Of a stretch of DNA of 34,355 nt, positions 2,095 through 30,938 are shown in pieces (within the stretch, counting starts at the first letter, position 1; the number at the start of each line of letters is the position of its first letter). Made by a program: the position numbers and the translations under genes. The notes beneath the pieces are model-generated. The model did not search any database. It was not told where the DNA came from and was given only the letters and a program-made list of their open reading frames with translations. The stretch comes from an uncultured Oscillospiraceae bacterium (lineage in GTDB: Bacteria > Bacillota > Clostridia > Oscillospirales > Oscillospiraceae): the NCBI GenBank assembly GCA_949948775.1, contig CATLHC010000025.1, positions 1 to 34,355 on the forward strand, written 5' to 3'.

Positions 2095-2643
2095 ATGAAT
2101 TTTGCGACCATCAAATGGGCCGACGTGGCCAACGGCCCTGGCGTCCGGGTATCCCTGTTCGTGTCCGGCTGCACCCATCACTGCCCCGGCTGCTTCAACG
2201 AAGAGGCCCAGGATTTTCATTACGGCCGGCCCTTTACCGGCGCGGAGGAGGACAATATCCTCCACGCTCTGGCCCCGGCCCACATCAAGGGGCTGTCCCT
2301 GCTGGGGGGCGAGCCCTTTGAGCCGGACAACCAGCGCTCCCTGCTCCCCTTCCTGCGGCGGGTAAAGGAAAAGTACCCCCAGAAGGAAATCTGGTGCTAC
2401 TCCGGGTACGTGCTGGAGGAGGAGCTGTGGAAGCCCAGCCGCGCCCGGTGTGAGTGCACCGACGAGATGCTCTCTCTCCTCGACGTCCTGGTGGACGGCC
2501 CCTTTGTGGAGGCGAAGAAGGATTTGAACCTGCGCTTCCGGGGCTCCTCCAACCAGAGGATTTTGAACGTCCCCGCCAGCATCGCGGCCCATGCCCCCGT
2601 CCTCTGGGACGGGGAGATGACCATACAGCCCATTACGGGATAA
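2095..2643 (+). CDS. nrdG: Anaerobic ribonucleotide reductase activating protein
   Basis: This radical-SAM activase uses a [4Fe-4S] cluster and S-adenosylmethionine to install the glycyl radical on NrdD. The radical-SAM CxxxCxxC motif is present as CTHHCPGC (Cys26, Cys30, Cys33), preceded by GPGVRVSLFVSG as is typical of NrdG. The GGEPF segment (LLGGEPF) that helps bind SAM follows. The length of 182 residues is slightly above the usual 155-175. The start ATG at 2095 is preceded by GAGGAG with 7-8 bases of spacing. It lies downstream of nrdD and 12 bases before dut, so these form a deoxynucleotide supply cluster. Confidence 0.96.
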   Translation: MNFATIKWADVANGPGVRVSLFVSGCTHHCPGCFNEEAQDFHYGRPFTGAEEDNILHALAPAHIKGLSLLGGEPFEPDNQRSLLPFLRRVKEKYPQKEIWCYSGYVLEEELWKPSRARCECTDEMLSLLDVLVDGPFVEAKKDLNLRFRGSSNQRILNVPASIAAHAPVLWDGEMTIQPITG

Positions 2644-2655
2644 GGAGGCCCCCAC

Positions 2656-3099
2656 ATGACTGAACCCGTCCCCGTCAAGCTCCTGGACCCCCGGGCCAGG
2701 GTGCCCGCCTATGGCTCCCCGGACGCCGCCGGGGCCGATCTATACGCCCTCACCGACGGGCCGGTGGCCATTGCCCCCGGCCGGACCGCCCTCATCCACA
2801 CCGGACTTGCCCTGGCCATCCCCCGGGGGTACGTGGGACTGGTGTGCGCCCGGTCTGGCCTGGCCACCAAGCAGGGCCTGGCCCCCGCCAATAAGGTGGG
2901 GGTCATCGACGCCGACTACCGGGGGGAGCTGATGGTGTCCCTTTTCAACCACAGCGGCGAGACGCGGGTGGTGGAGGACGGCGACCGGGTGGCCCAGCTG
3001 GTCATCACCCCTTACCTCGCAGCCCGGTTCCAGCCCGCCCAGGAGCTGGACGACACCCGGCGGGGAACCGGCGGCTTCGGCTCCACCGGCACAAAATAA
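2656..3099 (+). CDS. dut: dUTP diphosphatase (dUTPase)
   Basis: It hydrolyses dUTP to dUMP and pyrophosphate, keeping uracil out of DNA and supplying the thymidylate precursor; it is a cytoplasmic trimer in this family. All five trimeric-dUTPase motifs are visible in 147 residues: I (SPDAAGADLYA), II (ARSGLATKQGL), III (NKVGVIDADYRGE, catalytic Asp85), IV (DRVAQLVITP) and the C-terminal P-loop-like motif V (RGTGGFGSTG). The length is normal for the family. It starts 12 bases after nrdG with an AAGGAGG site at the nrdG stop, so the two are almost certainly co-transcribed. This fits a shared role in dNTP balance. Confidence 0.97.
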   Translation: MTEPVPVKLLDPRARVPAYGSPDAAGADLYALTDGPVAIAPGRTALIHTGLALAIPRGYVGLVCARSGLATKQGLAPANKVGVIDADYRGELMVSLFNHSGETRVVEDGDRVAQLVITPYLAARFQPAQELDDTRRGTGGFGSTGTK

Positions 3100-3105
3100 A
3101 AAGGC

Positions 3106-3130
3106 GGCCCCGGCGCACAGCGCCGGGGCC
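3106..3130. terminator. Bidirectional terminator between dut and a convergent gene
   Basis: A perfect 10-bp stem GGCCCCGGCG/CGCCGGGGCC with loop CACAG lies between the convergent dut and 3141-3617 genes. Read on the minus strand, it is followed by a T-rich run (GCCTTTTTATTTT), the stronger direction. On the plus strand it is followed by ATTTCG. Confidence 0.8.
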
Positions 3131-3140
3131 ATTTCGCTCA

Positions 3141-3617
3141 TTATTCGGGCTTATCCTCATCGTCGGCAGGGGCCCCGCCGCAGCAGCAGGGGGGGTCGTC
3201 CTCCTTGGGTTCCTCGCAGCAGCACTCCGTCTCGGTCTCCACGGCCTCCACCTCTTCATCGGTGAGCTGGCCGGCGGCCTTGATGTCGGCGATGCGCTCG
3301 TTGTTGTAGGAGATGCGGGCCATGGCGTCGGTGATGCGCTGGCAGGCGTCGGCGTAGGCCGCCTCGGGGGCGGAGCCCCGCTCGGCGTAGTACAGCTTGC
3401 CCAGCTCGGAGTAGGTCTTGCGGATGGCCTCCTGCTCGGCGGAGTTGTTCACCTTCAGCTTGCCGATCTCGGCGATCTCCTTGGCCTTGGCGGCGCCGGT
3501 GTCCGCCAGCTCCCTGGCCTTGGCCACGCCGGTCTCGGTCAGCTCCTTCACGCGGGTCACGCCGGTCTGGGCCGCGACCACAGCTTTGTCCTTCAGGCTC
3601 TCGAAATCAATGCTCAT
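3141..3617 (-). CDS. Hypothetical protein with 11-residue helical repeats and a cysteine-rich acidic tail
   Basis: I do not recognise a named family. The 158-residue product has no signal peptide or membrane segment. Residues 18-50 contain three consecutive 11-residue repeats of the form TG-V/A-x-K/R-x-K/R-E-L/I-x-E/D, as in LEA-type or right-handed coiled-coil helices. Residues 60-120 look helical. The tail is acidic and carries two CCC clusters (ECCCEEP and PPCCCGG), which suggests metal binding or redox chemistry. The ATG at 3617 follows TAAGGAGG at good spacing. A promoter lies at 3693-3721 and the shared terminator at 3106-3130, so it is a stand-alone transcript. Its function is unknown. 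Confidence 0.85.
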   Translation of the reverse strand: MSIDFESLKDKAVVAAQTGVTRVKELTETGVAKARELADTGAAKAKEIAEIGKLKVNNSAEQEAIRKTYSELGKLYYAERGSAPEAAYADACQRITDAMARISYNNERIADIKAAGQLTDEEVEAVETETECCCEEPKEDDPPCCCGGAPADDEDKPE

Positions 3618-3692
3618 GGGGTATTCCTCCTTAATCAGTTGTGGGCCGCCCAGCGGCGGCGTCCAACCCGCCGCTTCATTTCCACTGGAGCT

Positions 3693-3721
3693 ATTTTATG
3701 CCGATTCGGGAAAAAATGCAA
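3693..3721 (-). promoter_or_regulatory. Promoter for the cysteine-tailed repeat protein
   Basis: On the minus strand TTGCAT (3716-3721), a 17-base spacer and TAAAAT (3693-3698) form a good sigma-A-type promoter. It gives a leader of about 70 bases before the ATG at 3617. Confidence 0.6.
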
Positions 3722-3784
3722 GAGCCTTTGCCCATTGTTTAGAAAGGTTTAAGACTTTGTCAAAAATTTGGCCGTTTTTTCGGC

Positions 3785-4756
3785 TCATTCCCGGTCCTCT
3801 CCGGCCTCTCCGTCCAGCACCTGCCGGATGAGGAACCGGGGCCGGCCCTTGCTCTCCAGATACAGCTTGCCCAGGTACTCCCCGATGACTCCCAGGGACA
3901 GCAGAATCAGCCCTCCGATGAACCACACCGAGCAGGCCAGGCTGGCCCAGCCCGCCACGGTGTTCCCCGTGGCCCAGCGGACCACATTGTATACGATCAT
4001 GACGAGGGAGATGAAAAACACCAGGAACCCCAGCCCCGTGATCATCCGCAGGGGCTTGGTGGACAGAGAGGTGACCCCCTCCAGGGCGAAGGACACCATT
4101 TTTTTCAGCGGGTACTTGCTCTCCCCGGCGAACCGCTCCCCCCGCTCGTACTCCACCGTGTCGCAGGGGTAGCCGATCATGGGCACAATACCCCGGAGGA
4201 ACAGGTTGACCTCCTTGAACTGGGCCAGCCCCTCCAGCGCCCGCTTGGACATCAGGCGGTAGTCGGCGTGGTTGAACACCGTCTCCGCCCCCAAGAGGTC
4301 CATCATGCGGTAGAACGCCTCGGCGGTGGTGCGCTTGAAAAAGGTATCCGTCTTCCGGGAGGAGCGCACGCCGTAGACAATATCCGCCCCGGCCAGGTAC
4401 TTGTCCACCATGGCGTCGGCGGCGTCCACGTCGTCCTGGAGGTCGGCGTCCATGGAGATGACCATGTCCGCCCAGTCCTTGGCGGTCATCAGCCCCGCCA
4501 GCAGCGCGTTCTGATGCCCCCGGTTCCGGGACAGGTCCGCGCCGCACAGCAGATGGTTCTCCCGGTGGAGCCGGGTGATGACCTCCCAGGTCTTGTCCTT
4601 GGAGCCGTCGTTGACGAACAGCACCCGGCTCTGGGGGCTGATCTTCCCGGCGCTCATGAGGGTCCTCAGCTTGTCTCCCAGCCGCCGGGCGGTCTCGGGG
4701 AGAACCTCCTCCTCGTTGTAGCAGGGAACCACGATATACAGGGTATTGCCGCGCAT
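3785..4756 (-). CDS. GT2 family glycosyltransferase with two C-terminal membrane helices (GtrB/dolichyl-phosphate mannose synthase-like)
   Basis: It probably transfers a sugar from a nucleotide donor to a lipid-phosphate carrier at the inner face of the membrane, for wall or envelope glycan modification. The GT-A fold signatures are clear: VVPCYNEEEVLPET at the start, VNDGSKDKT (residues 48-56), the DXD metal site MDADLQDD (Asp103, Asp105), and QFKEVNLFLRG in the acceptor region. Two hydrophobic segments (about 240-262 and 276-298) near the end match the bactoprenol glucosyl transferase GtrB arrangement. At 323 residues it is a usual length. GGAGG lies 7 bases before the ATG at 4756. No flippase or polymerising partner is adjacent, so the sugar and acceptor are unknown. 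Confidence 0.92.
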   Translation of the reverse strand: MRGNTLYIVVPCYNEEEVLPETARRLGDKLRTLMSAGKISPQSRVLFVNDGSKDKTWEVITRLHRENHLLCGADLSRNRGHQNALLAGLMTAKDWADMVISMDADLQDDVDAADAMVDKYLAGADIVYGVRSSRKTDTFFKRTTAEAFYRMMDLLGAETVFNHADYRLMSKRALEGLAQFKEVNLFLRGIVPMIGYPCDTVEYERGERFAGESKYPLKKMVSFALEGVTSLSTKPLRMITGLGFLVFFISLVMIVYNVVRWATGNTVAGWASLACSVWFIGGLILLSLGVIGEYLGKLYLESKGRPRFLIRQVLDGEAGEDRE

Positions 4757-4816
4757 GGCTTGACCTCCAAAAGCGTTCCGCTTTCATTTCCTGTTTGTTT
4801 GGGTTGTGTCCGGTCA

Positions 4817-4845
4817 ATTTTACCAAAAAACCGCCCTCCCGTCAA
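4817..4845 (-). promoter_or_regulatory. Promoter for the GT2 glycosyltransferase
   Basis: TTGACG (4840-4845 on the minus strand), a 17-base spacer and TAAAAT (4817-4822) match the housekeeping promoter well. The -35 box overlaps the loop of the terminator hairpin of the upstream glycosylase gene. Confidence 0.65.
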
Positions 4846-4850
4846 GGGAG
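4825..4850 (-). terminator. Short terminator after the DNA glycosylase gene
   Basis: Read on the minus strand, a CTCCC/GGGAG stem with a five-base loop is followed by GCGG and six T residues, just after the glycosylase stop at 4856. The stem is short, so strength is uncertain. Confidence 0.45.
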
Positions 4851-4855
4851 CCCCC

Positions 4856-5467
4856 TCACAGGGTGAACCGCCACGGAAAATCGACGGCCTCCTCGGCGTA
4901 GTCGATGCCGATGCGCTTGCCCGCCTTGATGTCCAGCGGTTCCAAGTCCTCGGGCGGCGTGGGCAGACCCAGCTCCTCCAGGCTGCCGCAGAGGAACAGC
5001 TCCTGCGCGCCGTGGGGCAGGCCGTTGAGGGAGCGGTCGATGTTCATCCCGGCGCACAGCTTGCCCGGCCCGTTGAGAAAATTCTTCTTTTGATAGGCCG
5101 TCAGCCCCTCCCACTTGCAATGGAAGCGGTTTTCTGCTATGATATCCTGGTTGTGCCGGGGAGACAGCCCCCGGATCAGCACCGCCGCCGGCTCCCCCTC
5201 GGGCTCGGTGACGAAGTTGAGGCAGCAGTGCATCCCATAGATGAGGTATACATAGGCCGTCCCCGGCGGGGCGAACAGGGTCTTCGTCCGCTCCGTTTTC
5301 CGGTAGTTATAGGCGTGGCACGCCTTGTCCAGCCGGCCGATGTAGGCCTCCGTCTCGGTGACCCGGGCGGCCAGGGTGATCCCGCCGTACCGCCGCACCA
5401 GGTACTTGCCCACCAGGGATCGGGCGATTTCCACGGTGTCGCCGTCGAAAAAAGTCTGCGGGAGCAT
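4856..5467 (-). CDS. DNA-3-methyladenine glycosylase (AAG/MPG family)
   Basis: This base-excision repair enzyme removes 3-methyladenine and other alkylated or deaminated purines from DNA. Family signatures are present: VTETEAYIGRLDKACHA with catalytic Glu40 and Tyr42, His51, then PPGTAYVYLIYGMHCCLNFV, and NGPGKLCAGMNID towards the end, where the family has GPGKLCxALxI. The 203-residue length fits bacterial AAG proteins. I chose the ATG at 5467 because GGAGGAAAAGAC precedes it directly; an in-frame GTG at 5521 would add 18 residues without homology to the family. It is divergent from the EamA gene, with a short shared promoter region. Confidence 0.93.
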   Translation of the reverse strand: MLPQTFFDGDTVEIARSLVGKYLVRRYGGITLAARVTETEAYIGRLDKACHAYNYRKTERTKTLFAPPGTAYVYLIYGMHCCLNFVTEPEGEPAAVLIRGLSPRHNQDIIAENRFHCKWEGLTAYQKKNFLNGPGKLCAGMNIDRSLNGLPHGAQELFLCGSLEELGLPTPPEDLEPLDIKAGKRIGIDYAEEAVDFPWRFTL

Positions 5468-5501
5468 GTCTTTTCCTCCCCCCTCCGTGTTGGTTTCCCA
5501 T

Positions 5502-5530
5502 AGGATACCACACTTTGACACTTTTGAAAA
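5502..5530 (-). promoter_or_regulatory. Possible promoter for the DNA glycosylase
   Basis: On the minus strand TTTTCA (5525-5530), 17 bases and TATCCT (5502-5507), each matching the consensus at four of six positions. It would place transcription about 30 bases before the ATG at 5467. Confidence 0.4.
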
Positions 5531-5548
5531 CCCGGAGTTGAGCTTGTC

Positions 5549-6427
5549 ATGAACGAAAACACCCTAAAAAAACTGGCCAAGCCCATGATTGTGCTGGCCA
5601 CCGTCATCTGGGGCTCTACCTTCTTCATCCTGAAGGACACCCTGGACGACGTGGACCTGATGTTCCTGCTGGCTTTCCGCTTCACCCTGGCGGCGGGCAT
5701 CCTGGCGCTGGTGTTCCGGAAGCGCTGGCGGGCCATGGACCTGGGGTATCTCTGGCGGGGTGGGCTGATGGGCGCGCTGATGTTTGCCGCCTACGCCGTC
5801 CAAAACTACGGCCTCATGGACACCACCCCCGGGAAAAACGCCTTTTTCACCGCCGTGTACTGCGTCATCGTCCCCTTCCTCTACTGGGCGGTGGACAAGC
5901 TGCGGCCCTCCCGGTGGAACGTGCTGGCGGCGGTGCTGTGCGTGGCGGGCATCGGCCTGGTGTCCTGGGATGGAGGCATCTCCCTGACGGGGGGTGACCT
6001 GCTCACCCTGTGCGGCGGCCTTCTCTACGCCTGCCATATCGTGGCGGTGGCCAAGTTCTCCCAGGGCCGGGACATTTTCATCCTCACCGTGCTCCAGTTT
6101 GCCACAACAGCCCTTTGCTGCTGGATTGGGGCCCTGTTCACCCACGGCATTCCCTTGGACGGCCTGCCTGCGCGGGCCTGGTGGGTGCTGCTCTATCTGG
6201 CCATCGCCGCCACCACCGTGGCCCTGCTGTTCCAGAACGTGGGCCAGAAGTACACCGATCCCTCCTCCGCGGCCCTGTTGCTGGCGCTGGAGGCCCCCTT
6301 CGGCGTGGCCTTTTCCGTGCTGTTCGGCGCGGAGAACCCCTCCGCGTTGATGTACCTGGGTTTCTTCCTCATCTTCCTGGCGGTGGTGTGCTCTGAGACC
6401 CAATTCAAGTTCCTGCGCCGGAGGTAA
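5549..6427 (+). CDS. EamA/DMT-family transporter
   Basis: This is a drug/metabolite-transporter superfamily membrane protein of 292 residues, with about ten predicted transmembrane helices in two repeated EamA halves. Early residues ATVIWGSTFFILKD and the mid-protein segment TPGKNAFFTAVYCVIVPFL are typical of the first half; QNVGQKYTDPSSAALLLALEAPFG is the typical end of the second half. The substrate cannot be read from sequence; relatives export amino acids or metabolites. The ATG at 5549 has only a modest upstream CGGAG. The gene is transcribed away from the DNA glycosylase and converges on the hydrolase gene. Confidence 0.92.
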   Translation: MNENTLKKLAKPMIVLATVIWGSTFFILKDTLDDVDLMFLLAFRFTLAAGILALVFRKRWRAMDLGYLWRGGLMGALMFAAYAVQNYGLMDTTPGKNAFFTAVYCVIVPFLYWAVDKLRPSRWNVLAAVLCVAGIGLVSWDGGISLTGGDLLTLCGGLLYACHIVAVAKFSQGRDIFILTVLQFATTALCCWIGALFTHGIPLDGLPARAWWVLLYLAIAATTVALLFQNVGQKYTDPSSAALLLALEAPFGVAFSVLFGAENPSALMYLGFFLIFLAVVCSETQFKFLRRR

Positions 6428-6472
6428 GGGCTTTCCTTTTTTCTTTGAAAAGAGAATGAAAAGCGCGAAGCC

Positions 6473-6587
6473 GTCGCGAACAGGCGCAGCGCGACAAAAA
6501 GGAAGCGAAAAAAGAAACTTTTAGACTATTTCTATGGGAAATAGTCTAAAAGTTCTTTCTGGTTCTCTTTCTTTCAAGAAAGAGAAC
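6473..6587. terminator. Cluster of three hairpins between convergent genes
   Basis: The 181-base gap between the convergent EamA and hydrolase genes contains three inverted repeats: GTCGCG/CGCGAC (6473-6478/6490-6495), a perfect 16-bp stem (6517-6532/6538-6553, loop TATGG) and a 12-bp stem (6562-6573/6576-6587). Read on the minus strand, the 16-bp stem is followed by TTCTTTTTT, so it should terminate the hydrolase transcript. Such long perfect stems are more than a terminator needs, and the block may be a dispersed intergenic repeat. Confidence 0.65.
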
Positions 6588-6608
6588 AAATTAAATGCCC
6601 TTGACCAT

Positions 6609-7535
6609 TTACAGGTGCTTTTCCAGCCACGCCAGCACGTCGGCGTATACCTCGCCCTTGTTGATCTCGTTGAGCATCTCATGGCGCCCGCCGGGATAGA
6701 GCTTCATGGTCAGGTCCACGGTGCCGTGGTCTTTGAAGAAACCGTACACCCTCCGTACGCCCTCCCCGTTGGAACCCACCGGGTCCCGGTCACCGGAGAA
6801 CAGGTAGACCGGCGTGCGGGGGTCCATCCGGGACAGCGCCTTCTCGCTGGAGATATACTGCAGGCCGCCCATCATGTCTCGGAACATCCCGGCGCAGGGC
6901 ATAAAGGTGCAGAAGGGGTCCTTGAGATAGGCGTCCACCACCGCCTCGTCCCGACAGATCCAGTCCGCCGTGGTGCGGGTGGGCTTAAACTGGTCGTTGT
7001 AGGCGCCCAGGGACAGCTTGTTGACAAGGGGGCTTACCGTCTCAGGGCCCTTGAGGGCGCAGATGGCCGAGGCCAGCGCTTTGCCCGCCGCCACCAGGGC
7101 GGGCTTCTCCTGGCCGGTGCCTGATAGAACGCAGCCGTCCACCGTGCCGGGGTAGGCGCACAGGTAGGTCCGGGCCAGAAAGGAGCCCATGGAGTGGCCC
7201 AGCAGGAAATAGGGAATGCCGGGGAATTTCTCGCCCATGAGGACCCGGAGCCTGCGCACATCGGCGGTCACCAGCGTCCAGCCGTCCTTCCTGCCGAAAT
7301 AGCCGTACTTGCCGTCGTCCACCGTTTTGCCGTGGCCCAGGTGGTCCTCGCCGCACACGGCGAATCCGTGGTCCGCCAGATACCGGGCAAAGTGATCATA
7401 GCGGCCGGCGTATTCCGCCACGCCGTGGACAATCTGGACCACCGCCCTCGGTTTGCCCTCCGGCGTCCACAGGCTCGCGCAGCACTTGTGCACTCCGTCC
7501 TTAGAGGGGAAGGTAAATTCCGTAAACTCTGTCAT
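6609..7535 (-). CDS. Alpha/beta hydrolase, monoacylglycerol-lipase/serine aminopeptidase S33-like
   Basis: This is a cytoplasmic serine hydrolase of 308 residues in the lysophospholipase/monoglyceride lipase group. Seen: the oxyanion segment VQIVHGVAEYAGRYDHFA (HGxxE), the GEDHLGHG turn, the nucleophile elbow GHSMGS with Ser115, an acid in LFSGDRDPVG and the catalytic His in YPGGRHEML. Relatives cleave acyl-glycerols or lysophospholipids; the substrate here is unknown. The ATG at 7535 has a weak GGGTGA site. A promoter with a perfect TTGACA -35 lies at 7576-7604 and overlaps the divergent promoter of the S41 protease gene. The gene stands alone, ending in the hairpin cluster at 6473-6587. Confidence 0.9.
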   Translation of the reverse strand: MTEFTEFTFPSKDGVHKCCASLWTPEGKPRAVVQIVHGVAEYAGRYDHFARYLADHGFAVCGEDHLGHGKTVDDGKYGYFGRKDGWTLVTADVRRLRVLMGEKFPGIPYFLLGHSMGSFLARTYLCAYPGTVDGCVLSGTGQEKPALVAAGKALASAICALKGPETVSPLVNKLSLGAYNDQFKPTRTTADWICRDEAVVDAYLKDPFCTFMPCAGMFRDMMGGLQYISSEKALSRMDPRTPVYLFSGDRDPVGSNGEGVRRVYGFFKDHGTVDLTMKLYPGGRHEMLNEINKGEVYADVLAWLEKHL

Positions 7536-12761: not shown

Positions 12762-14084
12762 TCAGGGTACCGGGAGATCCGCCGGTATCGGAATCAGCAC
12801 GGTGAGCACAAAATTGTGATAGCCGTCAACGGCGGTGGTCATAATCCCGCCGTACTTTTCCGCCGTGCGGCGGATGCTGGACAGACCGATGCCATGACCG
12901 GGGGCGGATTTGCTGCTGAGAAAAACCTCCCCGCTCCGCCTCAGCTCCCCCTCGTAATAGTTCATCACCGTGACGACCAGATTGCCCGCCGCAGGGCCGC
13001 ACTTCAGCAGGACGCTTCGCTTTTCCTCGTTCTCTACCCTCAGGCTGGCCTCAATGGCATTGTCCAAAGCGTTGCTGAAGATGGTGCACAGGTCCATATC
13101 GCTGAGGAACCCACCCGTGCGAAAATCAATGTCGGCGGACAGAGCGATGCCGTCCCGTTCGGCCCGGCGGATTTTTTCAGACAAAAGCCCGTCCAGCAGC
13201 GGGCTGCCGGTGTCCGTCAAAATCTCATACTCATTTGTGCGCTGGAGGAGCTGACCGATATACGCCTCCAGCTTTTTGTTTTCGCCCACCAGCTGCTGCA
13301 GCCCAAGCAGATGGTTTTTCATGTCGTGGTGAAGCTGCCGCAGGTCCGTATCGGCCTCCGCCTTCGCCATGGTGCTCTCATAGCGGTACCGGGCGGCCAC
13401 CTCGTTCAGACGCTCCTGCTCCCGGCGGGCCTGGGACGAGAGATGGCGCTCCAGCAAAACCAGCGACGCGGTTAGAAACAGCTGGAGCAGGATGGGGTAC
13501 ATGGTCAGTTCCCGCAGATAGACCTCCGGCAAGGCCTCCGAAATGGTTTTCAGCGTGGTTTTGACATAAAGCTCACAGATCACCACCACTCCGGCGGCGG
13601 CCAGACGAAAGCGGTCCACCGGGCGGTGGTCTTGGAAGGGGAACACCCGGCTGATGAGGGTGAGGATCAAAAACTCGCAGAGCAGCTCCACGGCCGCGCT
13701 GACAAAGCGGTTCAGCACAGGCAGAGCGGACCAGCTCACCTGATTCCACCGGAGGAAGGACAGCTCGGGGGTCATAAAAATATTATTCTGCGTGGTGAAG
13801 GCGATCCAGCACAGGGCGCCGTAATAAAGGCTCTCCCAGGCGCCCGTGCCCTTGCGCAGCCGGAGCCACAAAGCATAGCTGGCCGTACGGAACGCGAAGC
13901 GGAACAGGGCCACGGCGGTCTCACCCCCGCCGGGAATCACATAGATGGGGGCCGTGCAGAGCAGCAGCGCAAAGCACAGCGCCTGCCGGGAGCGAGAGAC
14001 ATGGCGTTCCCCCTGAAGCGGGCGGAAAAACCACCCCACCATGAGCGCGTCAAAGACGCAGCGGTAGAGCTCCGGCCATTTCAC
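12762..14084 (-). CDS. AgrC-type sensor histidine kinase (GHKL, HPK10)
   Basis: This is a membrane sensor kinase of 440 residues. The first 210 residues carry about six hydrophobic segments, the AgrC/ComD-like sensor domain that in known members reads a peptide signal. A short coiled coil (about 215-245) leads to the phospho-acceptor LHHDMKNHLLGL (His253), then the N-box FSNALDNAIEA (Asn338, Asn342) and the G-box GHGIGLSSIRRTAEKYGG (about 397-413). The ATG overlaps the regulator stop by four bases (ATGA), giving translational coupling in a two-gene operon. No AgrB protease or AgrD pheromone gene is next to it, so the signal is unknown. Confidence 0.93.
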   Translation of the reverse strand: MKWPELYRCVFDALMVGWFFRPLQGERHVSRSRQALCFALLLCTAPIYVIPGGGETAVALFRFAFRTASYALWLRLRKGTGAWESLYYGALCWIAFTTQNNIFMTPELSFLRWNQVSWSALPVLNRFVSAAVELLCEFLILTLISRVFPFQDHRPVDRFRLAAAGVVVICELYVKTTLKTISEALPEVYLRELTMYPILLQLFLTASLVLLERHLSSQARREQERLNEVAARYRYESTMAKAEADTDLRQLHHDMKNHLLGLQQLVGENKKLEAYIGQLLQRTNEYEILTDTGSPLLDGLLSEKIRRAERDGIALSADIDFRTGGFLSDMDLCTIFSNALDNAIEASLRVENEEKRSVLLKCGPAAGNLVVTVMNYYEGELRRSGEVFLSSKSAPGHGIGLSSIRRTAEKYGGIMTTAVDGYHNFVLTVLIPIPADLPVP

Positions 14085-14794
14085 AGGATACCGCCTCCCG
14101 CATAGGCCGCAAAAGCCTCCAAGAATTCCTTTCGGCGGTGCTTGCTCACCGGAAGCACATCCCCGTTAGACATGCGCACGCCGGCTGCGCTGATCTGGGC
14201 GACGTGCCGCAGGTTGACGGTGTAGCTTTTGTGGCAGCGGAAGAAGCCCTTCCCCCGCAGAACCTCGCCCATGTCGCTCATGGTGGCGTGGCACACCAGC
14301 GGGCCGGAGCTGCGCACGAAGCGCAGGTCATGGTCCAGCACCTCTAGATAGATCAGCTCCGCCAGACAGATGGAGTAGATCTCCCCTCCGGCCCGCAGGG
14401 TGATGCTCTCCTCCCGGCGGGGCGCCAGGTGGCGCAGCGCGTCCAGCAGCTGAAGGCGGAACTGCGCGTACCTGAGCGGCTTTTTTAAAAAGCCGTAGGC
14501 ATGGACCTGGTACCCCTCCATCGCGTACTGGGTCATGGTGGTAATAAAAATGATACACACGTCCCGGCGGTCCGCTCGAAGCCGCCGGGCGGCGTCCATG
14601 CCGGTGATGCCCTCCATCTTGATGTCCAAAAACACCAGGTCGGTGTCCGCGGAGAACTGGGCCAGCAGCGCCTCGCCAGAGTGGATTTCCTTGACGCAGA
14701 ACTGCTCTCCCGTCTCACCGGAAAACCGTTCCAGCTGTGCCCGGACGGCGGCGCGGACCGCCGCCTCGTCGTCGCAGACGATAACCTTCCACAT
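14081..14794 (-). CDS. LytTR response regulator (AgrA/ComE type)
   Basis: This is the cytoplasmic DNA-binding partner of the adjacent kinase. Residues 1-120 are a receiver domain: acidic pair Asp8/Asp9 in VCDDE, phospho-acceptor Asp57 in VFLDIKM, FITTMT and the lysine in FLKKPL. Residues about 135-235 are a LytTR domain (SITLRAGGEIYSI, LIYLEVLDHDLRFV, FFRCHKSYTVNLRHV, LPVSKHRRKEF), which binds 9-bp direct repeats spaced by about 21 bp. I chose ATG 14794, preceded by GGGGAGGGG, over an upstream in-frame start because the receiver domain begins exactly there. A matching repeat pair and promoter lie directly upstream, which suggests autoregulation. Confidence 0.94.
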   Translation of the reverse strand: MWKVIVCDDEAAVRAAVRAQLERFSGETGEQFCVKEIHSGEALLAQFSADTDLVFLDIKMEGITGMDAARRLRADRRDVCIIFITTMTQYAMEGYQVHAYGFLKKPLRYAQFRLQLLDALRHLAPRREESITLRAGGEIYSICLAELIYLEVLDHDLRFVRSSGPLVCHATMSDMGEVLRGKGFFRCHKSYTVNLRHVAQISAAGVRMSNGDVLPVSKHRRKEFLEAFAAYAGGGIL

Positions 14795-14828
14795 AACGCC
14801 CCTCCCCTTGGCCGATGGTTTTGATATT

Positions 14829-14857
14829 AGAATATCCTTTTTCATGAATAAAGTCAA
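14829..14857 (-). promoter_or_regulatory. Promoter of the first kinase/regulator operon
   Basis: On the minus strand TTGACT (14852-14857), 17 bases and TATTCT (14829-14834), about 35 bases before the regulator ATG. The LytTR-like repeat pair starts a few bases upstream of the -35. Confidence 0.65.
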
Positions 14858-14861
14858 TCTT

Positions 14862-14895
14862 CCAGTTGCGGGGAAAAAACGCCCTGTTGCGGGGA
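14862..14895. promoter_or_regulatory. Putative LytTR binding site, direct repeats with 21-bp period
   Basis: CCaGTTGCGGGGA (14862-14874) and CCtGTTGCGGGGA (14883-14895) differ at one of 13 positions and start exactly 21 bp apart, two helical turns. Taken as 9-mers, this is the 9-N12-9 layout of AgrA and ComE sites, with the GTT core of LytTR boxes. The pair sits between two divergent -35 boxes (14852-14857 minus and 14901-14906 plus). It probably binds the adjacent regulator. Confidence 0.65.
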
Positions 14896-14900
14896 TTCGC

Positions 14901-14929
14901 TTGCGCTGTGGCGGAAACCCGGGTATTTT
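14901..14929 (+). promoter_or_regulatory. Candidate promoter of the hydrolase/permease operon
   Basis: TTGCGC (14901-14906), 17 bases and TATTTT (14924-14929). The -35 is imperfect, as expected if an activator bound at 14862-14895 supports it. The transcript would have a leader of about 165 bases including the structured element at 14998-15071. Confidence 0.45.
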
Positions 14930-14997
14930 GTGGGTACACGGCGTTATAGTCACCGCGCTTCATAAAGATTCTATTGACGTCTGCGGTGAGCTTCCTC

Positions 14998-15071
14998 GGC
15001 AGAGCACAGCCCATAAATGGGCGGGCTTTGCCCGCCTTGAAAATCAGTTACCGATTTTCAAATGCTCTGCC
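14998..15071 (+). other. Branched inverted-repeat element upstream of the MBL-fold gene
   Basis: GGCAGAGCA (14998-15006) pairs perfectly with TGCTCTGCC (15063-15071) and encloses two further perfect hairpins: GGCGGGC/GCCCGCC (15020-15026/15030-15036) and TTGAAAATC/GATTTTCAA (15037-15045/15053-15061). An alternative stem GCCCA/TGGGC (15009-15013/15018-15022) overlaps the first inner hairpin, so two folds are mutually exclusive. It ends about 16 bases before the ribosome binding site of the next gene. It may be a switching leader RNA or a small palindromic repeat; I do not recognise the class. Confidence 0.55.
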
Positions 15072-15099
15072 TATAACACGCAAGAGAAAGGTGATGACC

Positions 15100-15969
15100 A
15101 TGCGGCAGATCAAATCCTGGCGTACCCCCACCCCCCACCGCCCGCTTTTTGGGGCGGCCGTGGAGCCCTTCCCCGCCACCCGCTTCTTCGACCAGCTCTC
15201 CTTCATCGGCACGCCCAATGTGGGCTGCTTCGTGCTGGAGACTGCCGAGGGGCTTATCCTGCTGGACTGTATGGAACCTTTGGATGAGCACCGCGACATG
15301 ATTGTCAAGGGCTTGGCCGACCTGGGTCTGGAGCTGAGCGACCTGAAGGCCATCCTGATTACCCACGGACACGGAGACCACTACGGCAGGGCCGACTGGT
15401 TTCGGGAGCGGACCGGCTGCAAGATTCTCATGTCCCGGACGGACTATGCGTTCGCCCAGCACGACACCCGCAACCGCACCGGAGTTTTGCAGTGGGAGAT
15501 TCACGACTTTATCGAGGATGGCGATGTGTTCTGTCTGGGCGGCACCGAAATCCGGGCCTTTGCCACCCCCGGCCACACCCCCGGCTGTCTGAGCTACATC
15601 TTCCCGGTTTCCGACGAGGGCAGGCCCCATATGGCCGCCATGTGGGGAGGCACCGGCGTGCCGTACAAGCTGAGCGACAAGGTGGACTATCTCCGCTCCA
15701 CCCTCTATTTCGCTGACCAGACCGCCCGGTACGGCTGTGATGTGGAGATCTCCGCCCACCCCTTTGTGGACCGGGGCACCGACCGGCTGGCCGTCCTGCG
15801 CGAGATCAGCGACGGCGTCCCCAATCCCTTCGTCCTGGGCCGGGAGAGCTACAAGCGGTACGAGCGGATGTTCACCGATCTCTGCCTGGAGGCCATGGCC
15901 GCCCAGGCCGGAGCGGTGGATCCCCTGCTACCCCCGCCCCCGCCGCCCCCCACCCGTCCAAAGGCGTAA
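15100..15969 (+). CDS. MBL-fold metallo-hydrolase, subclass B3 beta-lactamase-like
   Basis: This is a zinc-dependent hydrolase of 289 residues. Metal-ligand motifs are seen: THGHGDHYG (His89, His91, Asp93, His94), TPGHTPGCLSY (His159) and SAHPF (His220). The HTPGC block and overall order resemble subclass B3 beta-lactamases and related hydrolases, but there is no signal peptide, so a cytoplasmic substrate such as an ester, lactone or thioester is likelier than an antibiotic. The tail carries eight consecutive prolines. ATG 15100 was preferred to ATG 15094, because AAAGG is eight bases from the former and only two from the latter. It shares an operon with the permease 65 bases downstream. Confidence 0.88.
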   Translation: MRQIKSWRTPTPHRPLFGAAVEPFPATRFFDQLSFIGTPNVGCFVLETAEGLILLDCMEPLDEHRDMIVKGLADLGLELSDLKAILITHGHGDHYGRADWFRERTGCKILMSRTDYAFAQHDTRNRTGVLQWEIHDFIEDGDVFCLGGTEIRAFATPGHTPGCLSYIFPVSDEGRPHMAAMWGGTGVPYKLSDKVDYLRSTLYFADQTARYGCDVEISAHPFVDRGTDRLAVLREISDGVPNPFVLGRESYKRYERMFTDLCLEAMAAQAGAVDPLLPPPPPPPTRPKA

Positions 15970-16034
15970 CAAAACCAACCCCGCCGCCGTCCTGCCCACG
16001 GCGGGCGCACATAAAGACAGAGGAGAGGTACTTT

Positions 16035-17510
16035 ATGCAGAGAACGCAAACCTACACCGCAAAAAAGGCGGTCCATCTCGTCATCAGCCTGTTTTTCATG
16101 TTCCTGTTCGGCAGCATCTGCCCCACCTGGGGTCCCGTCACCCGGATGGGCGTCCAGGCCGTCGGCATCTTCCTGGGCGGCGTCTGGATGATCGCCCAGG
16201 GCTTTGGCATGATCGCCCCCTCCTTCCTCATCATGCTGGCCATAATCCTCACGGGGTTCACCAACGGCGCCGACATCATCACCTCCACCCTCGGCTCCCC
16301 CACCGTATGGCAGCTCATCGTCATTTTCGTGGTCCTCTACGCCCTGACGCAGAGCGGCACCGACGCGGTGCTGGCCCGCTGGATGATCTCCCGGAAGAGC
16401 CTTAACGGCAGACCCGTACTGTTTACCGTCGTGTTTATGGCGGCCATGACGGTACTGGGCGCGCTGGCTTCCGCCCTGGGCGCCTATATGTTCTCCATCG
16501 CAATGATCGATTCCATCGCTGAGACGGTGGGCTACGACAACTCCAGCCAGTGGAAAAAAGCGATGTATACCGGGGCCATTGTCACCGCCTCCGTGGGCGG
16601 CGGCATTCTCCCCTTCAAGGGCATGGCCCTTATGATCTACAACCTGATGGAAGGCGGGCTGACCGAAGCGGGGGTGCATATCGATCAGGTCTCCTACCTG
16701 GCGGCCGCCATGGTCTCCGGCCTGTTCATCTCCGTGTTCATCGGGCTGTCCATCGGCACGATCTTCAAAGCGGACTTCTCCAATCTGAAGCAGGCCGATG
16801 TGGCCTCCATCACCGCTGCCGGCGGCACCCGGTTCAATAGGCGCCAGGCCTGGACCTTGATCCTTTTCGTCATCGGCATTCTCTACTCCGTGGTCATGAT
16901 CTGGCTGCCCAAAAGCTTTCCGCAGTACGACGTCATCAACGGCATCGGCCAGGGCTTTTGGTTTGTGCTCGTTGCCGTGCTGATGTTCTTCATTCACGTG
17001 GACGGCGAACCCCTGCTGAATCTGGACCAGGCCATGGGCAAGGCGGTCAACTGGGGCATCGTCATGGCCGTGTGCGCCTTTACCGCTCTGGGCATGATGG
17101 TCTCCAGCCCGGACCTTGGCGTCCGGGACTGGCTGTCCGGCCTGATGAACGCCCTGTTCGGCAATATGCCTTTCCCGCTGTTTGTCGTCGTGCTGGTGCT
17201 GCTCACCCTGGTGTGCACCAATGTGTTTTCCAATACGGCGACCGCCGTGATCATCGGAACGGTGGTCGGTCCCCTGCTCATCAACTACGGGCAGAGCGGC
17301 ATCAACGTCAGCTGTGTGATTCCCGGTATCGTCATGAGCGCCCTGTGCGCCTTCCTGACCATGGCAGCCGGCGGTTCAGCTCCGCTGTTCCTCGGCACGG
17401 AATGCATGCAGGAAAAGCCCAACTGGGTGCTGACCTGGGGCCTGTGGGTATTCCCCATCGTCGCTGCGGCCTCCTCCCTGGCCTACATCATCTGCGCATA
17501 TATCCTTTAA
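16035..17510 (+). CDS. SLC13/DASS-like anion permease
   Basis: This is an integral membrane transporter of 491 residues with roughly 11-12 hydrophobic helices. The second half contains VFSNTATAVIIG, the SNT sodium/substrate motif of the divalent anion:sodium symporter superfamily. The segment SVGGGILPFKGMALM in the first half falls where the paired repeat is expected, although its SNT is not conserved. Relatives move dicarboxylates, tricarboxylates or sulfate. GAGGAG precedes the ATG at good spacing. It follows the MBL-fold hydrolase in one operon, so the permease may take up a substrate for the hydrolase or export its product. The exact substrate is unknown. Confidence 0.82.
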   Translation: MQRTQTYTAKKAVHLVISLFFMFLFGSICPTWGPVTRMGVQAVGIFLGGVWMIAQGFGMIAPSFLIMLAIILTGFTNGADIITSTLGSPTVWQLIVIFVVLYALTQSGTDAVLARWMISRKSLNGRPVLFTVVFMAAMTVLGALASALGAYMFSIAMIDSIAETVGYDNSSQWKKAMYTGAIVTASVGGGILPFKGMALMIYNLMEGGLTEAGVHIDQVSYLAAAMVSGLFISVFIGLSIGTIFKADFSNLKQADVASITAAGGTRFNRRQAWTLILFVIGILYSVVMIWLPKSFPQYDVINGIGQGFWFVLVAVLMFFIHVDGEPLLNLDQAMGKAVNWGIVMAVCAFTALGMMVSSPDLGVRDWLSGLMNALFGNMPFPLFVVVLVLLTLVCTNVFSNTATAVIIGTVVGPLLINYGQSGINVSCVIPGIVMSALCAFLTMAAGGSAPLFLGTECMQEKPNWVLTWGLWVFPIVAAASSLAYIICAYIL

Positions 17511-17536: not shown

Positions 17537-17577
17537 TGCAGAACTCCCTGTGCCGCCACGGCATAGGGAGTTCTGCA
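17537..17577 (+). terminator. Long hairpin after the permease gene
   Basis: An 18-bp stem (17537-17554 with 17560-17577, one G-T pair) has a five-base loop, 26 bases after the permease stop. A pyrimidine-rich stretch precedes it, but no T-run follows on either strand. It probably marks the transcript end or protects it from exonuclease rather than acting as a classical terminator. The bases from 17578 to 17700 show nothing else I can assign. Confidence 0.5.
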
Positions 17578-17709
17578 TAGAAACCGCCCGCAGCCAGGCG
17601 GTCTCGGGGATCAAGAAGTTTACAAGTCCTCTATACGGCAAACCGCTTGCCTCAAAAGCTGACCGCCGCTCTTCAGATCCTCCTCCAGCGTGCGCCGGGC
17701 ATTCAAGCG

Positions 17710-17738
17710 TGGACAAACCGCCCCGGATATGGTATATT
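17710..17738 (+). promoter_or_regulatory. Promoter of the second kinase/regulator operon
   Basis: TGGACA (17710-17715), a 17-base spacer and TATATT (17733-17738), with an extended TGG before the -10. This strong promoter gives a leader of about 30 bases and supports the GTG start at 17777. Confidence 0.7.
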
Positions 17739-17776
17739 GTCTGCGCATTGTTCTGCGGAAAGGAAGGGGGCTCACC

Positions 17777-19102
17777 GTGCTCACACTGGAGGATTATCTG
17801 CTTGAATTTACAGGTTCCCTGATCTCCCACGCCATCCTGGCGGCCTACCTGTTTGTGATTATGGATACGCGGGGGCGGCAGGTGCTGAAAAAACTGCCCG
17901 CCCTGCTGCTCTCCCCGTTGCTGGTCACCCTGCTGGACGGGGCTTTGTATGTACTTCTCCCCAATGACGCAGTAATCCGTTACTGTGTGTTCTCCTGCAC
18001 CGCCCTGGTGACGTGCACCCTGTGGGTTCGGTGGGCGTGGCGAATCGAATTCTGGCGGGCCTTTTCCGCTGTGTGCATGGCGGGTATGTTCCAGGTGGCC
18101 GCGTCCGGCCTGGCCCAGATATTGGTTCTGAACAGCGAGTTCCCGTATGCGGCGGTGATGGCCGTCTATGGGGCTGTGGCGCTGGTCTCCGCCGCCCTGC
18201 TGCGCCAGCTCCGCTTCGGACACTGGTTCCGCCTTCTGCTGGAAGAAGGTACCGGCCAGCGCCGCATGGCCCTGCTCTTCTTTGCCCTGGAGGCGTCTAT
18301 GGAGGCATTCTTCCTTTTACAAATAGGGGTACAGCCGGATTATCTGGTGCCCTACTATGCGCTTGTGCTGGTGATGGCGGGGCTGGCGGTGGGGCTGGTG
18401 GCCTACCTGGCCCAGCAGATGGATACCGCCCGGAAGCTGGAGGCCCAGCGGGATGTCATCGCCCAGCAGCAGCTCTACGAGCGGGACCTGGAGTCCATCC
18501 GCCGGGAGGTGCGCTCATTCCGCCACGACTATAAAAACCTGCTGGCGGGGCTGTCGGAGCAGGCGGACGAGGGCGAGCTGGATCAGCTGCGCGCCGCCCT
18601 GTCGGAGCTGGACGCGGGCTTTGACCGGCGCATCGGGGAGAAGATCCGAGCCTCCACCCAGCTGGGCAATGTGCGCATCCCCCAGGTGCGCAGCCTCCTG
18701 CTGTCCAAGCTGGCGGCCATGGGGCAAAAAGGGATCGACTGCCGCCTGGAGGCGCTCTACCCCGTGGAGCGGGTCGGAATGGACGTTTGGGACTTCACCC
18801 GCTGCCTGGGCATCCTGCTGGACAACGCCGCCGAGGCTGCGGCGGAAACGGAGACGCCCTGGGTGGAAGTCGTCCTGCTGGCCCAAGGGGAGGGGCTGTC
18901 CCTGCGGGTGTCCAACCCCTACGCCGGAAGTGTTGACCCGGACAAGCTCTGGGCGGAGGGTTCCTCCACCAAGGGGGAGGGCCGGGGGCTGGGCCTGGCC
19001 GGCTATCAGCGGATTCTGGCGGGGTATGCCAACGCGGACTCGTCCACCAGCTGGGCGGAGGGCGTGTTTGTCCAGGAGCTGAGGGTAGAGGGCAGGCCAT
19101 GA
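17777..19102 (+). CDS. AgrC-type sensor histidine kinase (GHKL), second system
   Basis: This is a membrane sensor kinase of 441 residues. About six hydrophobic segments occupy residues 10-220, followed by a coiled coil (about 222-245), the phospho-acceptor SFRHDYKNLLAGL (His250), the N-box GILLDNAAEAA and the G-box GRGLGLAGYQ. I chose GTG 17777, because GGAAGGGGG precedes it and an upstream in-frame ATG at 17690 lies before the promoter at 17710-17738. Its 3' end overlaps the regulator gene by four bases. The architecture matches the first kinase (12762-14084), but the sequences differ strongly, so this is a separate system and not a recent duplicate. No agrB/agrD-like gene is adjacent. Confidence 0.92.
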   Translation: MLTLEDYLLEFTGSLISHAILAAYLFVIMDTRGRQVLKKLPALLLSPLLVTLLDGALYVLLPNDAVIRYCVFSCTALVTCTLWVRWAWRIEFWRAFSAVCMAGMFQVAASGLAQILVLNSEFPYAAVMAVYGAVALVSAALLRQLRFGHWFRLLLEEGTGQRRMALLFFALEASMEAFFLLQIGVQPDYLVPYYALVLVMAGLAVGLVAYLAQQMDTARKLEAQRDVIAQQQLYERDLESIRREVRSFRHDYKNLLAGLSEQADEGELDQLRAALSELDAGFDRRIGEKIRASTQLGNVRIPQVRSLLLSKLAAMGQKGIDCRLEALYPVERVGMDVWDFTRCLGILLDNAAEAAAETETPWVEVVLLAQGEGLSLRVSNPYAGSVDPDKLWAEGSSTKGEGRGLGLAGYQRILAGYANADSSTSWAEGVFVQELRVEGRP

Positions 19103-19836
19103 TTCAAATTTACCTATGTGATGATGAAGAGGCCGTCCTCCACCAGCTCAAAACCGCCCTGGAGTGGAAAATCTTCGTGGAAAACTACGACATGGAGGTG
19201 GCCTGCGCCGCCTCCACGGCCCGGGAGCTGCTGGAGGCGGCCCGGGACGGGAGCCGGAGCGTCTACTTTCTGGACGTGGATTTGAAGGACGGGGAGTGGG
19301 ACGGCTTTGCCCTGGGCCGGGAGCTGCGGCGGCGGGACCCCCACGGCACCCTGGTGTATGTCACCAGCTACGGCGACCTGGCCTGGAAAACCTTCCAGTA
19401 CCATCTGGAAGCCTTTGACTACATCGTGAAGGAGCCGGAGCGCACCGGCCCATCCGCCGCCCGGTGTTTAGAGGCCGTCCACGCCCGCCTGCTGGATGAG
19501 CGCCGGGATCCGGCGGAGGTGTTCTCCCTGCGGGCGGGGGATGAAACGCGGCACGTGCCACTGTCCGATATCCTGTTTTTTGAGACAGCCCCCAAGGCCC
19601 ACCATGTGTATCTCCACACGGCGGACAGCCGGATCGATTTTGTGGGCAGTCTGAACGAGCTGGAGCGGGAGCTGGGCGGGCGGTTTGTCCGCGTCCACCG
19701 GGCCTATCTGGCGGCGGCGGACAAAATCGAGGCGGTGGACTGGAAGGGAAACCGGGTCCAGGTGGGAGGCCGGGAATGCCTGCTGTCTCGCGCCGGGAAA
19801 TCGGAATTAAAAAAGAAACTGGGAGGGGGCCTGTGA
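19099..19836 (+). CDS. LytTR response regulator, second system
   Basis: This is a DNA-binding regulator of 245 residues. The receiver domain (1-125) has the acidic pair in LCDDEE, phospho-acceptor Asp59 in YFLDVDL, VTSYGDLAW and Lys in DYIVKEPE. The LytTR domain (about 140-240) has VFSLRAGDETRHVP, ILFFETAPKAHHVYLHT, FVRVHRAYLAAADKIEAV and LLSRAGKSELKKKL. It is translationally coupled to the kinase by ATGA overlap. Its stop codon lies in the loop of a terminator hairpin. Immediately after that hairpin is a LytTR-type direct repeat in front of the next gene, its probable target. Confidence 0.94.
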   Translation: MIQIYLCDDEEAVLHQLKTALEWKIFVENYDMEVACAASTARELLEAARDGSRSVYFLDVDLKDGEWDGFALGRELRRRDPHGTLVYVTSYGDLAWKTFQYHLEAFDYIVKEPERTGPSAARCLEAVHARLLDERRDPAEVFSLRAGDETRHVPLSDILFFETAPKAHHVYLHTADSRIDFVGSLNELERELGGRFVRVHRAYLAAADKIEAVDWKGNRVQVGGRECLLSRAGKSELKKKLGGGL

Positions 19837-29702: not shown

Positions 29703-30938
29703 ATGAAGCAACGACTCAAGCGCCTGACGGCCCTGCTGCTGACGGCGCTGTCCCTGCTGAGCGCCGCCGGCTGTTCGTCCGCCGGCGCGTCCGGCGAGCA
29801 GAGCATCCGCCTGATGGTCTGGTCCGCGTCGGAGGATCAGTCCAAGGACAGCGGCGAATGGCTCCAAACCTGCTGCGAGAACTTCGCGGCCCTGCATCCG
29901 GAGTGGGACATCACCTTTGTCTACGGCGTGGCCGATGAGGCCACCGCCGCCAACACCGTGTCCCAGGACCCCAGCGCCAGCGCCGACGTGTTCCTGTACG
30001 CCAACGACAACCTGACCGTCCTCACCGACGCCAAGGCCCTGGCCAAGCTGGGCGGCAAATACGCCGATGAGGTGGCCTCCTTCACCAGCGACGCCCTGCT
30101 GGAGTCGGTGACCCTGGACGGCTATCTCTACGGCGTGCCGTTCACCACCAACACCTGGTACATGTACTACGACAAACGGGTGTTCTCTGAGGAGGACGTG
30201 AAGAGCCTGGACGCCATGCTGGAAAAGGGCGTGGTCTCCTTCCCCTTCGTCAACTCCTGGTATCTGCCCGCCTTCTACTTCGGCAACGGCTGCACTCTCT
30301 TCGGCGACGGCACCCAGGAGGAACTGGGGGCCGACTTTGGCGGGGAGAACGCCGCCCAGGTGACGGACTATCTGATTGACCTCATCAAAAACCCCAATTT
30401 CGTGGTGGATGACGGCGGCTCCGGTATGGCCGGCCTCCGGGACGGCAGCATTAAGGCCATGTTCAGCGGCTCCTGGGACTCCGCCAGCATCCGGGAGATT
30501 TTGGGCGACAACATGGGCGTGGCCGCCCTGCCCACCTACACCCTCAACGGCGAGACGAAACAAATGTACTCCTATGCCGGGTCCAAGGCCGTGGGCGTCA
30601 ACTCCCAATCGGAGAATATGGTGGCGGCGGTGGAGTTGGCGGTCTATCTCGGCTCCGCCGAGGCCCAGCGGCTGCACTATGACCTTCGCAACGTCATCCC
30701 CAGCAACACCGAGCTGATGGACGATCCGGACATCGCCGCCGACCCGGTGGTCATCGCCCAGAACGACACCTTTGACCGCACCAGCAAACTCCAGCCCTTT
30801 GTCCCCCAGATGACCAACTGCTGGACACCGGTAGAGAACATGGGCCGGGGCATTCGGAACAGCTCCGTTACCCACGCCAACGCGGTAGAACAAACCACTG
30901 CCATGAACGACGCCATGAACAGCGACGGCATCAGCTGA
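29703..30938 (+). CDS. Maltose-type ABC transporter solute-binding lipoprotein
   Basis: This is an extracellular sugar-binding protein of 411 residues. The N-terminus is a lipoprotein signal (KRLTALLLTALSLLS, lipobox SAAGC, Cys24), anchoring the protein to the membrane face. Family features follow: IRLMVWSASEDQ, a central GYLYGVPFTTNTWYMYYDKRVF, GSIKAMFSGSWD, and KAVGVNSQSE late in the protein. Length and pattern fit family-1 (malto-oligosaccharide) binding proteins. GGAGGG lies about eight bases before ATG 29703. It is first of an operon with two permeases. The maltodextrin preference is inferred from the permeases and the debranching enzyme. Confidence 0.92.
   Translation: MKQRLKRLTALLLTALSLLSAAGCSSAGASGEQSIRLMVWSASEDQSKDSGEWLQTCCENFAALHPEWDITFVYGVADEATAANTVSQDPSASADVFLYANDNLTVLTDAKALAKLGGKYADEVASFTSDALLESVTLDGYLYGVPFTTNTWYMYYDKRVFSEEDVKSLDAMLEKGVVSFPFVNSWYLPAFYFGNGCTLFGDGTQEELGADFGGENAAQVTDYLIDLIKNPNFVVDDGGSGMAGLRDGSIKAMFSGSWDSASIREILGDNMGVAALPTYTLNGETKQMYSYAGSKAVGVNSQSENMVAAVELAVYLGSAEAQRLHYDLRNVIPSNTELMDDPDIAADPVVIAQNDTFDRTSKLQPFVPQMTNCWTPVENMGRGIRNSSVTHANAVEQTTAMNDAMNSDGIS

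Follow-up and report, generated by a model that had tools for sequence, protein, structure and literature searches.

Described LytTR regulators and the locus under study

Two LytTR response regulators of Escherichia coli have transporter genes as targets. YpdB activates yhjX, which is presented as its only direct target, through repeats of 21-bp period (PMC4847170). BtsR activates btsT, which encodes a pyruvate transporter (PMC10653868); the BtsR site is given as an oligonucleotide, ACCGCTTAC-12-ACCACTCAG, in PMC4847170. PMC6193735 describes the repeats of LytTR operons as 9-mers of varying sequence, spaced 11-13 bp apart (mostly 12) and strongly biased towards a position 10 bp before the -35 box; the operons studied there are self-activating through such repeats.

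The window, which is the whole stretch of 34,355 nucleotides that was analysed, contains a locus that resembles these systems to different degrees. It shares with YpdA/YpdB-yhjX a LytTR response regulator, two direct repeats of 21-bp period and a transporter target. However, the kinase is of the LytS type there and a GHKL protein similar to AgrC/DcuS here, and in the present locus an MBL-fold hydrolase accompanies the permease in a target operon that is divergent and adjacent (PMC4847170). BtsS/BtsR-btsT is alike in having a LytTR regulator, and its transporter carries a carboxylate (pyruvate), whereas the kinase and transporter families differ and the ligand is established only for the E. coli system (PMC10653868). 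The P2/P3 region of Staphylococcus aureus agr also combines a LytTR regulator (AgrA), direct repeats and an intergenic region with two promoters, but in agr the repeats are separate for the two promoters, which have 18- and 20-bp spacers, while a single pair lies here between two promoters with 17-bp spacers (PMC4227749). Besides, the agr operon includes the peptide-signal genes agrB and agrD, whereas only regulator, kinase, MBL protein and permease were identified in the conserved cassette described below.

The LytTR Regulatory Systems (LRS) of Streptococcus mutans are similar in their 9-12-9 repeats, located about 10 bp before the -35 box and drifting between species, but in them the LytTR protein has an inhibitory membrane protein as its partner (PMC6193735). 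Membership of the LRS was considered and rejected because the present regulator has a receiver domain and its partner is a GHKL kinase. Three features of a LytTR-type two-component system are present: a regulator with receiver and LytTR domains, an adjoining membrane kinase and 9-12-9 direct repeats. The VirR boxes of Clostridium perfringens are likewise two direct repeats, which are bound independently and whose spacing is critical.

Genes and features of the cassette

The features of the locus are the following (positions in the window).

12762-14084, minus strand: membrane histidine kinase with GHKL domain, 440 aa (Pfam)
14081-14794, minus strand: response regulator with receiver and LytTR domains, 237 aa (Pfam)
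14829-14857, minus strand: predicted regulator-kinase promoter, TTGACT-17-TATTCT (promoter scan; TTGACG-17-TATGAT aligned in L035 and L054)
14861-14874, plus strand: repeat 1, T+CCAGTTGCGGGGA (aligned repeats in L035 and L054)
14861-14869, plus strand: first 9-mer in the LytTR register, TCCAGTTGC
14875-14881, no strand: stretch between the repeats (6 of 7 bases kept between window and L035)
14882-14895, plus strand: repeat 2, C+CCTGTTGCGGGGA (aligned repeats in L035 and L054)
14882-14890, plus strand: second 9-mer in the LytTR register, CCCTGTTGC
14901-14929, plus strand: proposed MBL-permease promoter, TTGCGC-17-TATTTT (by eye; relatives aligned gap-free)
15100-15969, plus strand: MBL-fold hydrolase, 289 aa, no evident signal peptide (Pfam; by eye)
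16035-17510, plus strand: permease, 491 aa (Pfam CitMHS)

The gene names given in the earlier note stand. The regulator matches PF00072 (Response_reg, 64.3 bits) and PF04397 (LytTR, 58.5 bits), both above cut-off, and the kinase matches PF14501 (HATPase_c_5, 75.3 bits), also above cut-off. The best NCBIfam match of the regulator is BtsR, at 69 bits against a cut-off of 246. For the permease, the assignment to SLC13 rests on the Pfam family CitMHS, with 35.1 bits against a cut-off of 31.9; NCBIfam gave no match, and the comparison with PDB sequences gave no relative (a single chance match).

The MBL protein exceeds the Pfam cut-off for Lactamase_B. Its residues H89, H91, D93, H94, H159 and H220 are invariant in six aligned sequences, and we take them to be the metal ligands. 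The metal-ligand set of subclass B3 metallo-beta-lactamases is three His, Asp-His and His, and in sequence comparison the solved proteins nearest to it are B3 enzymes, 2gmn among them (E 1.9e-25). The label of B3 beta-lactamase is not warranted, as the score for NF033105 (111.5 bits) lies below its cut-off of 240. By eye, the N-terminus is free of any hydrophobic stretch. The likeliest role of the MBL protein and the permease would be to import an anionic compound and hydrolyse it within the cell, given that a CitMHS-type permease is encoded in the MBL protein's own operon. In the library of open-access full texts that was searched, neither the combination of MBL, SLC13 and two-component system nor a link of LytTR with the MBL fold or CitMHS was found.

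The direct repeats and the two predicted divergent promoters

Between the regulator and MBL genes, which start at 14794 (minus strand) and 15100 (plus strand), lie 305 bp of intergenic DNA. This region contains the 13-mers CCAGTTGCGGGGA (14862-14874) and CCTGTTGCGGGGA (14883-14895), identical at 12 of 13 positions and starting 21 bp apart, whose shared form is CC(A/T)GTTGCGGGGA. Repeat 1 begins with CCAGTT, as does the VirR box. When the intergenic region was dinucleotide-shuffled, none of 1000 sequences had a pair as good at 21 bp, and 1 of 200 had one at some spacing from 12 to 40, which bears out the repeat pair first noticed by inspection of the letters; the pair is more than chance. The 9-N12-9 layout proposed at that time also holds, but not its register, for the published LytTR register starts the 9-mers one base earlier (14861 and 14882). 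The stretch 14875-14881, taken together with the bases immediately preceding it, contains an A-tract that is conserved in all three cassettes.

The minus-strand promoter is the sole promoter-like match in 14000-16100, where one was found and 0.5 expected. In the scan it agrees with the consensus at 9 of 12 positions; counted by hand, its counterparts in the related loci L035 and L054 agree at 10 of 12. On the other side, the proposed plus-strand promoter agrees, also counted by hand, at 7 of 12 in all three loci; this is below the promoter scanner's threshold of 9, and the scanner returned no match for it. Gap-free alignment places TTGTAC-17-TAAATT (L035) and TTGTTC-17-TAAATT (L054) as its counterparts. 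The start points of both promoters are putative; on these counts the MBL-permease promoter would be a poor one and that of the regulator near-consensus.

The distance of 5-7 bp first proposed between repeats and -35 boxes has to be corrected, as the gaps measured from the 13-mers are 4 and 5 bp. In the published register, repeat 1 lies 3 bp from the minus -35, and the 9-mer of repeat 2 ends 10 bp before the plus -35.

Orthologous cassettes and conservation of the site

Relatives were sought with the MBL protein, and the scan of genome contigs yielded two loci, L035 and L036. Matches were found in 2 of 42 genomes of the window's genus (E<=1e-40), in 3 of 394 of the order (1e-60) and, in the class, in 1 of 391 (1e-70), which is the window's own genome. 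In the family of the genome that carries L035 (G804) there were 3 among 299 genomes (1e-60), and in the family of G1070 a single one among 397, at a strict threshold (1e-90) and in an overlapping draw, which is G804 again. The plasmid search returned 65 records, each below 60% identity.

Complete cassettes were found in the window, L035 and L054. In L035, from Clostridium sp. MCC353, the divergent arrangement is complete, with regulator, kinase, MBL protein and permease 50%, 46%, 69% and 66% identical to those of the window; in L054 (genome G1058) the corresponding values are 52%, 46%, 68% and 66%. The kinase-regulator gene pair is kept in both, and both genomes examined of L035's genus (2 of 2) carry the cassette. 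Since L035 and L054 belong to the same genus they represent one independent lineage, which together with the window makes two. L036, titled uncultured actinobacterium, encodes at 2190-6254 an MBL protein (66% identical) and a permease (67%) without the regulator and kinase, and a PucR-type regulator gene lies upstream of the pair. L055 and L057 have relatives of the MBL protein, with no relatives of P0001, P0002 and P0004 in the stretches examined.

Alignment of the three intergenic regions is gap-free over the span of repeat 1 through the plus -10. The repeats of L035 are CCATTTATGCTG and CCTGTTATGCTG, those of L054 are CCATTTAAGCTG and CCTGTTATGCTG, and in both loci they stand 21 bp apart. 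In all three, 18 bp separate the start of CCTGTT in repeat 2 from the plus -35, followed by the 17-bp spacer and TATTTT or TAAATT. The check proposed in the earlier note, conservation of the repeats and of their 21-bp spacing in orthologous loci, thus gave a positive result in the only two complete orthologous cassettes found, which come from one genus.

Between window and L035, 8 of 14 bases are kept in each repeat, against 15 of 29 in the minus promoter and 14 of 29 in the plus promoter, so conservation of the repeats barely exceeds that of the promoters. The DNA beyond the plus promoter keeps 15 of 71 bases. Of the 13 repeat positions, seven are unchanged in both copies, four have changed in step (the same new base appears in both copies) and two otherwise. 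Such in-step changes would be expected of two copies read by a single protein. Judged as a repeat by itself, the L054 pair is not unusual, with 52 of 1000 shuffles doing as well.

These data bear on the idea of a duplication that is vestigial or due to chance. The motif score of the window is weak (see below), and another 12/13 direct repeat at 21 bp occurs in the 34-kb window at 30278, within the ORF 29703-30938. However, place, period and in-step changes are conserved in another genus, and such an origin is hardly credible.

Fit to published LytTR sites and proposed mechanism

In the published register, the window reads TCCAGTTGC-12-CCCTGTTGC-10-TTGCGC-17-TATTTT. The repeats and the 10-bp gap have the geometry of published LytTR activator sites. 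A LytTR matrix was built from 38 published 9-mers, corresponding to 19 of the 25 rows printed in PMC6193735. With this matrix the repeat pair is the top plus-strand site in the intergenic region of every one of the three loci, and 21 bp is the best of the spacings 17-26 in window, L035 and L054. Among all placements in 11 kb, the pair ranks first in L035 (18.997) and in L054 (17.4), and in each of them its score is equalled by 1 of 2000 intergenic shuffles. Repeat 2 reads ACCTGTTAT in both relatives, which closely resembles published LytTR repeats. In the window the pair ranks 11th of 68652 placements, and 287 of 2000 shuffles are as good.

By motif alone the window's site would go unrecognised; what identifies it is the repeat, its spacing and the sites in the orthologous loci. 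The suggestion that the specificity may be new was overstated, because the 9-mers taken one base earlier show some resemblance to published LytTR repeats; what survives of it is that the window copies are the weakest fit of the three.

The adjacent LytTR regulator probably binds at the repeats, and would from there activate the MBL-permease operon. The membrane kinase (12762-14084) would sense an outside signal and phosphorylate the regulator (14081-14794). The repeats would then be occupied by two regulator molecules, arranged head to tail along one helix face, 10 bp before the weak plus -35, and the bound regulator would recruit RNA polymerase to the hydrolase-permease operon (15100-17510), whose products may take up a compound, probably an anion, and hydrolyse it intracellularly. 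The regulator operon, with its near-consensus promoter, would probably be expressed at a basal level, which the bound regulator may alter in either direction. Activation of the MBL-permease operon would be the conserved job, since both the matrix site and the 10-bp gap point to its poor promoter.

The earlier note had one site serving both operons. A LytTR site between divergent operons is indeed supported, but activation of the regulator's own operon is the weaker part of that proposal, with a promoter already near consensus and on the reverse side of the repeats. Activation of both promoters from the one site, including positive autoregulation of the regulator-kinase operon, is conceivable though doubtful: the LytTR operons studied in PMC6193735 activate themselves through such repeats, and the matrix reads a minus-strand pair in L054 (ACAGCATAA-12-ACAGCTTAA, 13.6) and, weakly, in L035 (7.1), but the minus-strand reading never exceeds 5 in the window and the repeats stand just 3 bp from the minus -35 in the published register. 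Self-activation is unproven, because the regulator promoter is near-consensus and the repeats are backwards relative to it.

The occupied site could instead mainly repress the regulator's own promoter while activating the other side. Repeat 1 is only 3-4 bp from the minus -35, and a near-consensus promoter needs no help; against this, the gap from repeat 1 to the minus -35 shifts by 1-2 bp in the relatives, and predominant repression seems unlikely.

The regulatory layout is of a well-known kind and ordinary. The target operon and the half-sites' change in step appear to be what is new, each to a modest degree. We would put forward only speculatively, and with considerable doubt, a one-operon signalling cassette in which a single two-repeat site is shared back to back by both promoters, its half-sites having been rewritten in step as the regulator diverged, and which controls the uptake and intracellular hydrolysis of a substrate new to LytTR systems; the hydrolase-permease pair would be its movable part, as in L036, where it lies downstream of the PucR-type regulator gene. 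If activation of the MBL-permease operon by the adjacent regulator is right, a rare MBL hydrolase-permease pair is tied to a sensor kinase, and the ligand of the kinase would be a route to the substrate. Besides, window and relative would constitute a natural experiment in LytTR DNA preference, with regulators 50% alike and sites differing in step at four positions.

Other LytTR regulators and extent of the regulon

A second copy of the pair was sought in the 2.82-Mb draft genome (89.4% complete) with up to three mismatches, and only the window site was found. With a relaxed 9-mer pair, the search gave the window site and five two-mismatch places, fewer than the reversed-pattern controls (12 and 19). 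On these counts from the draft, a wider regulon was rejected or at best weakly indicated. The regulon may be a single operon, as reported for E. coli YpdB, since the pair was found once in the 2.8-Mb draft.

The genome of the window has 14 matches to the regulator protein, so other LytTR regulators are present. A second pair of kinase and LytTR regulator is encoded at 17690-19836, on the permease's strand and 200 bp downstream of the permease. It is improbable that the site serves another LytTR regulator such as this one, close as the second pair is to the permease: the conserved cassette in L035 and L054 has the P0001-type pair only, further scanned neighbours belong to other families, and the stretch upstream of the second pair contains no comparable 21-bp repeat.

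Upstream regions of LytTR regulators in related genomes were also compared (90 regions: the 30 best matches and 60 further listed). Direct repeats with at least 10 of 11 identities at a spacing of 21 occur in 7 of the 90, window included, while the 30 other spacings (14-44) gave 0-2 each, 16 altogether. With a looser 9-mer cut (8 matches) the peak at 21 is modest, 12 regions against 9 for the next spacing. The matrix from the published rows gave 5 at spacing 21 and at most 3 at others; a general motif for the other regulators was discarded, as this matrix barely stands out. The regulators of the group seem to share the spacing and to differ in letters.

In L127 (genome G031) a LytTR regulator gene faces a divergent 1007-aa ORF (3112-6135, 6304-7035), with a 10/11 pair at 21 bp between them, possibly a similar layout with another target. 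Six regulator matches, 32-34% identical, each contain one in-match TGA (G011:C1, G001:C1, G006:C24, G010:C34, G025:C131 and G021:C62), which may simply mean that the alignment runs past the terminal stop.

Leader and downstream elements

The leader of the MBL gene contains a strongly folding element (14998-15071) with the ends GGCAGAGCA/TGCTCTGCC; the fold of 14990-15078 has -38.4 kcal/mol and a z-score of -6.2. It is a dispersed repeat that occurs in 6 of the 42 genomes of the genus; its own genome has 2 matches and G017 has 20. A role of this RNA element in the switch was rejected because it is a dispersed repeat and, by eye, the short leaders of L035 and L054 lack it. Searches of the window with Rfam and ARAGORN gave no matches. 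After the permease gene, a long inverted repeat was seen by eye at 17537-17577, which is perhaps a terminator.
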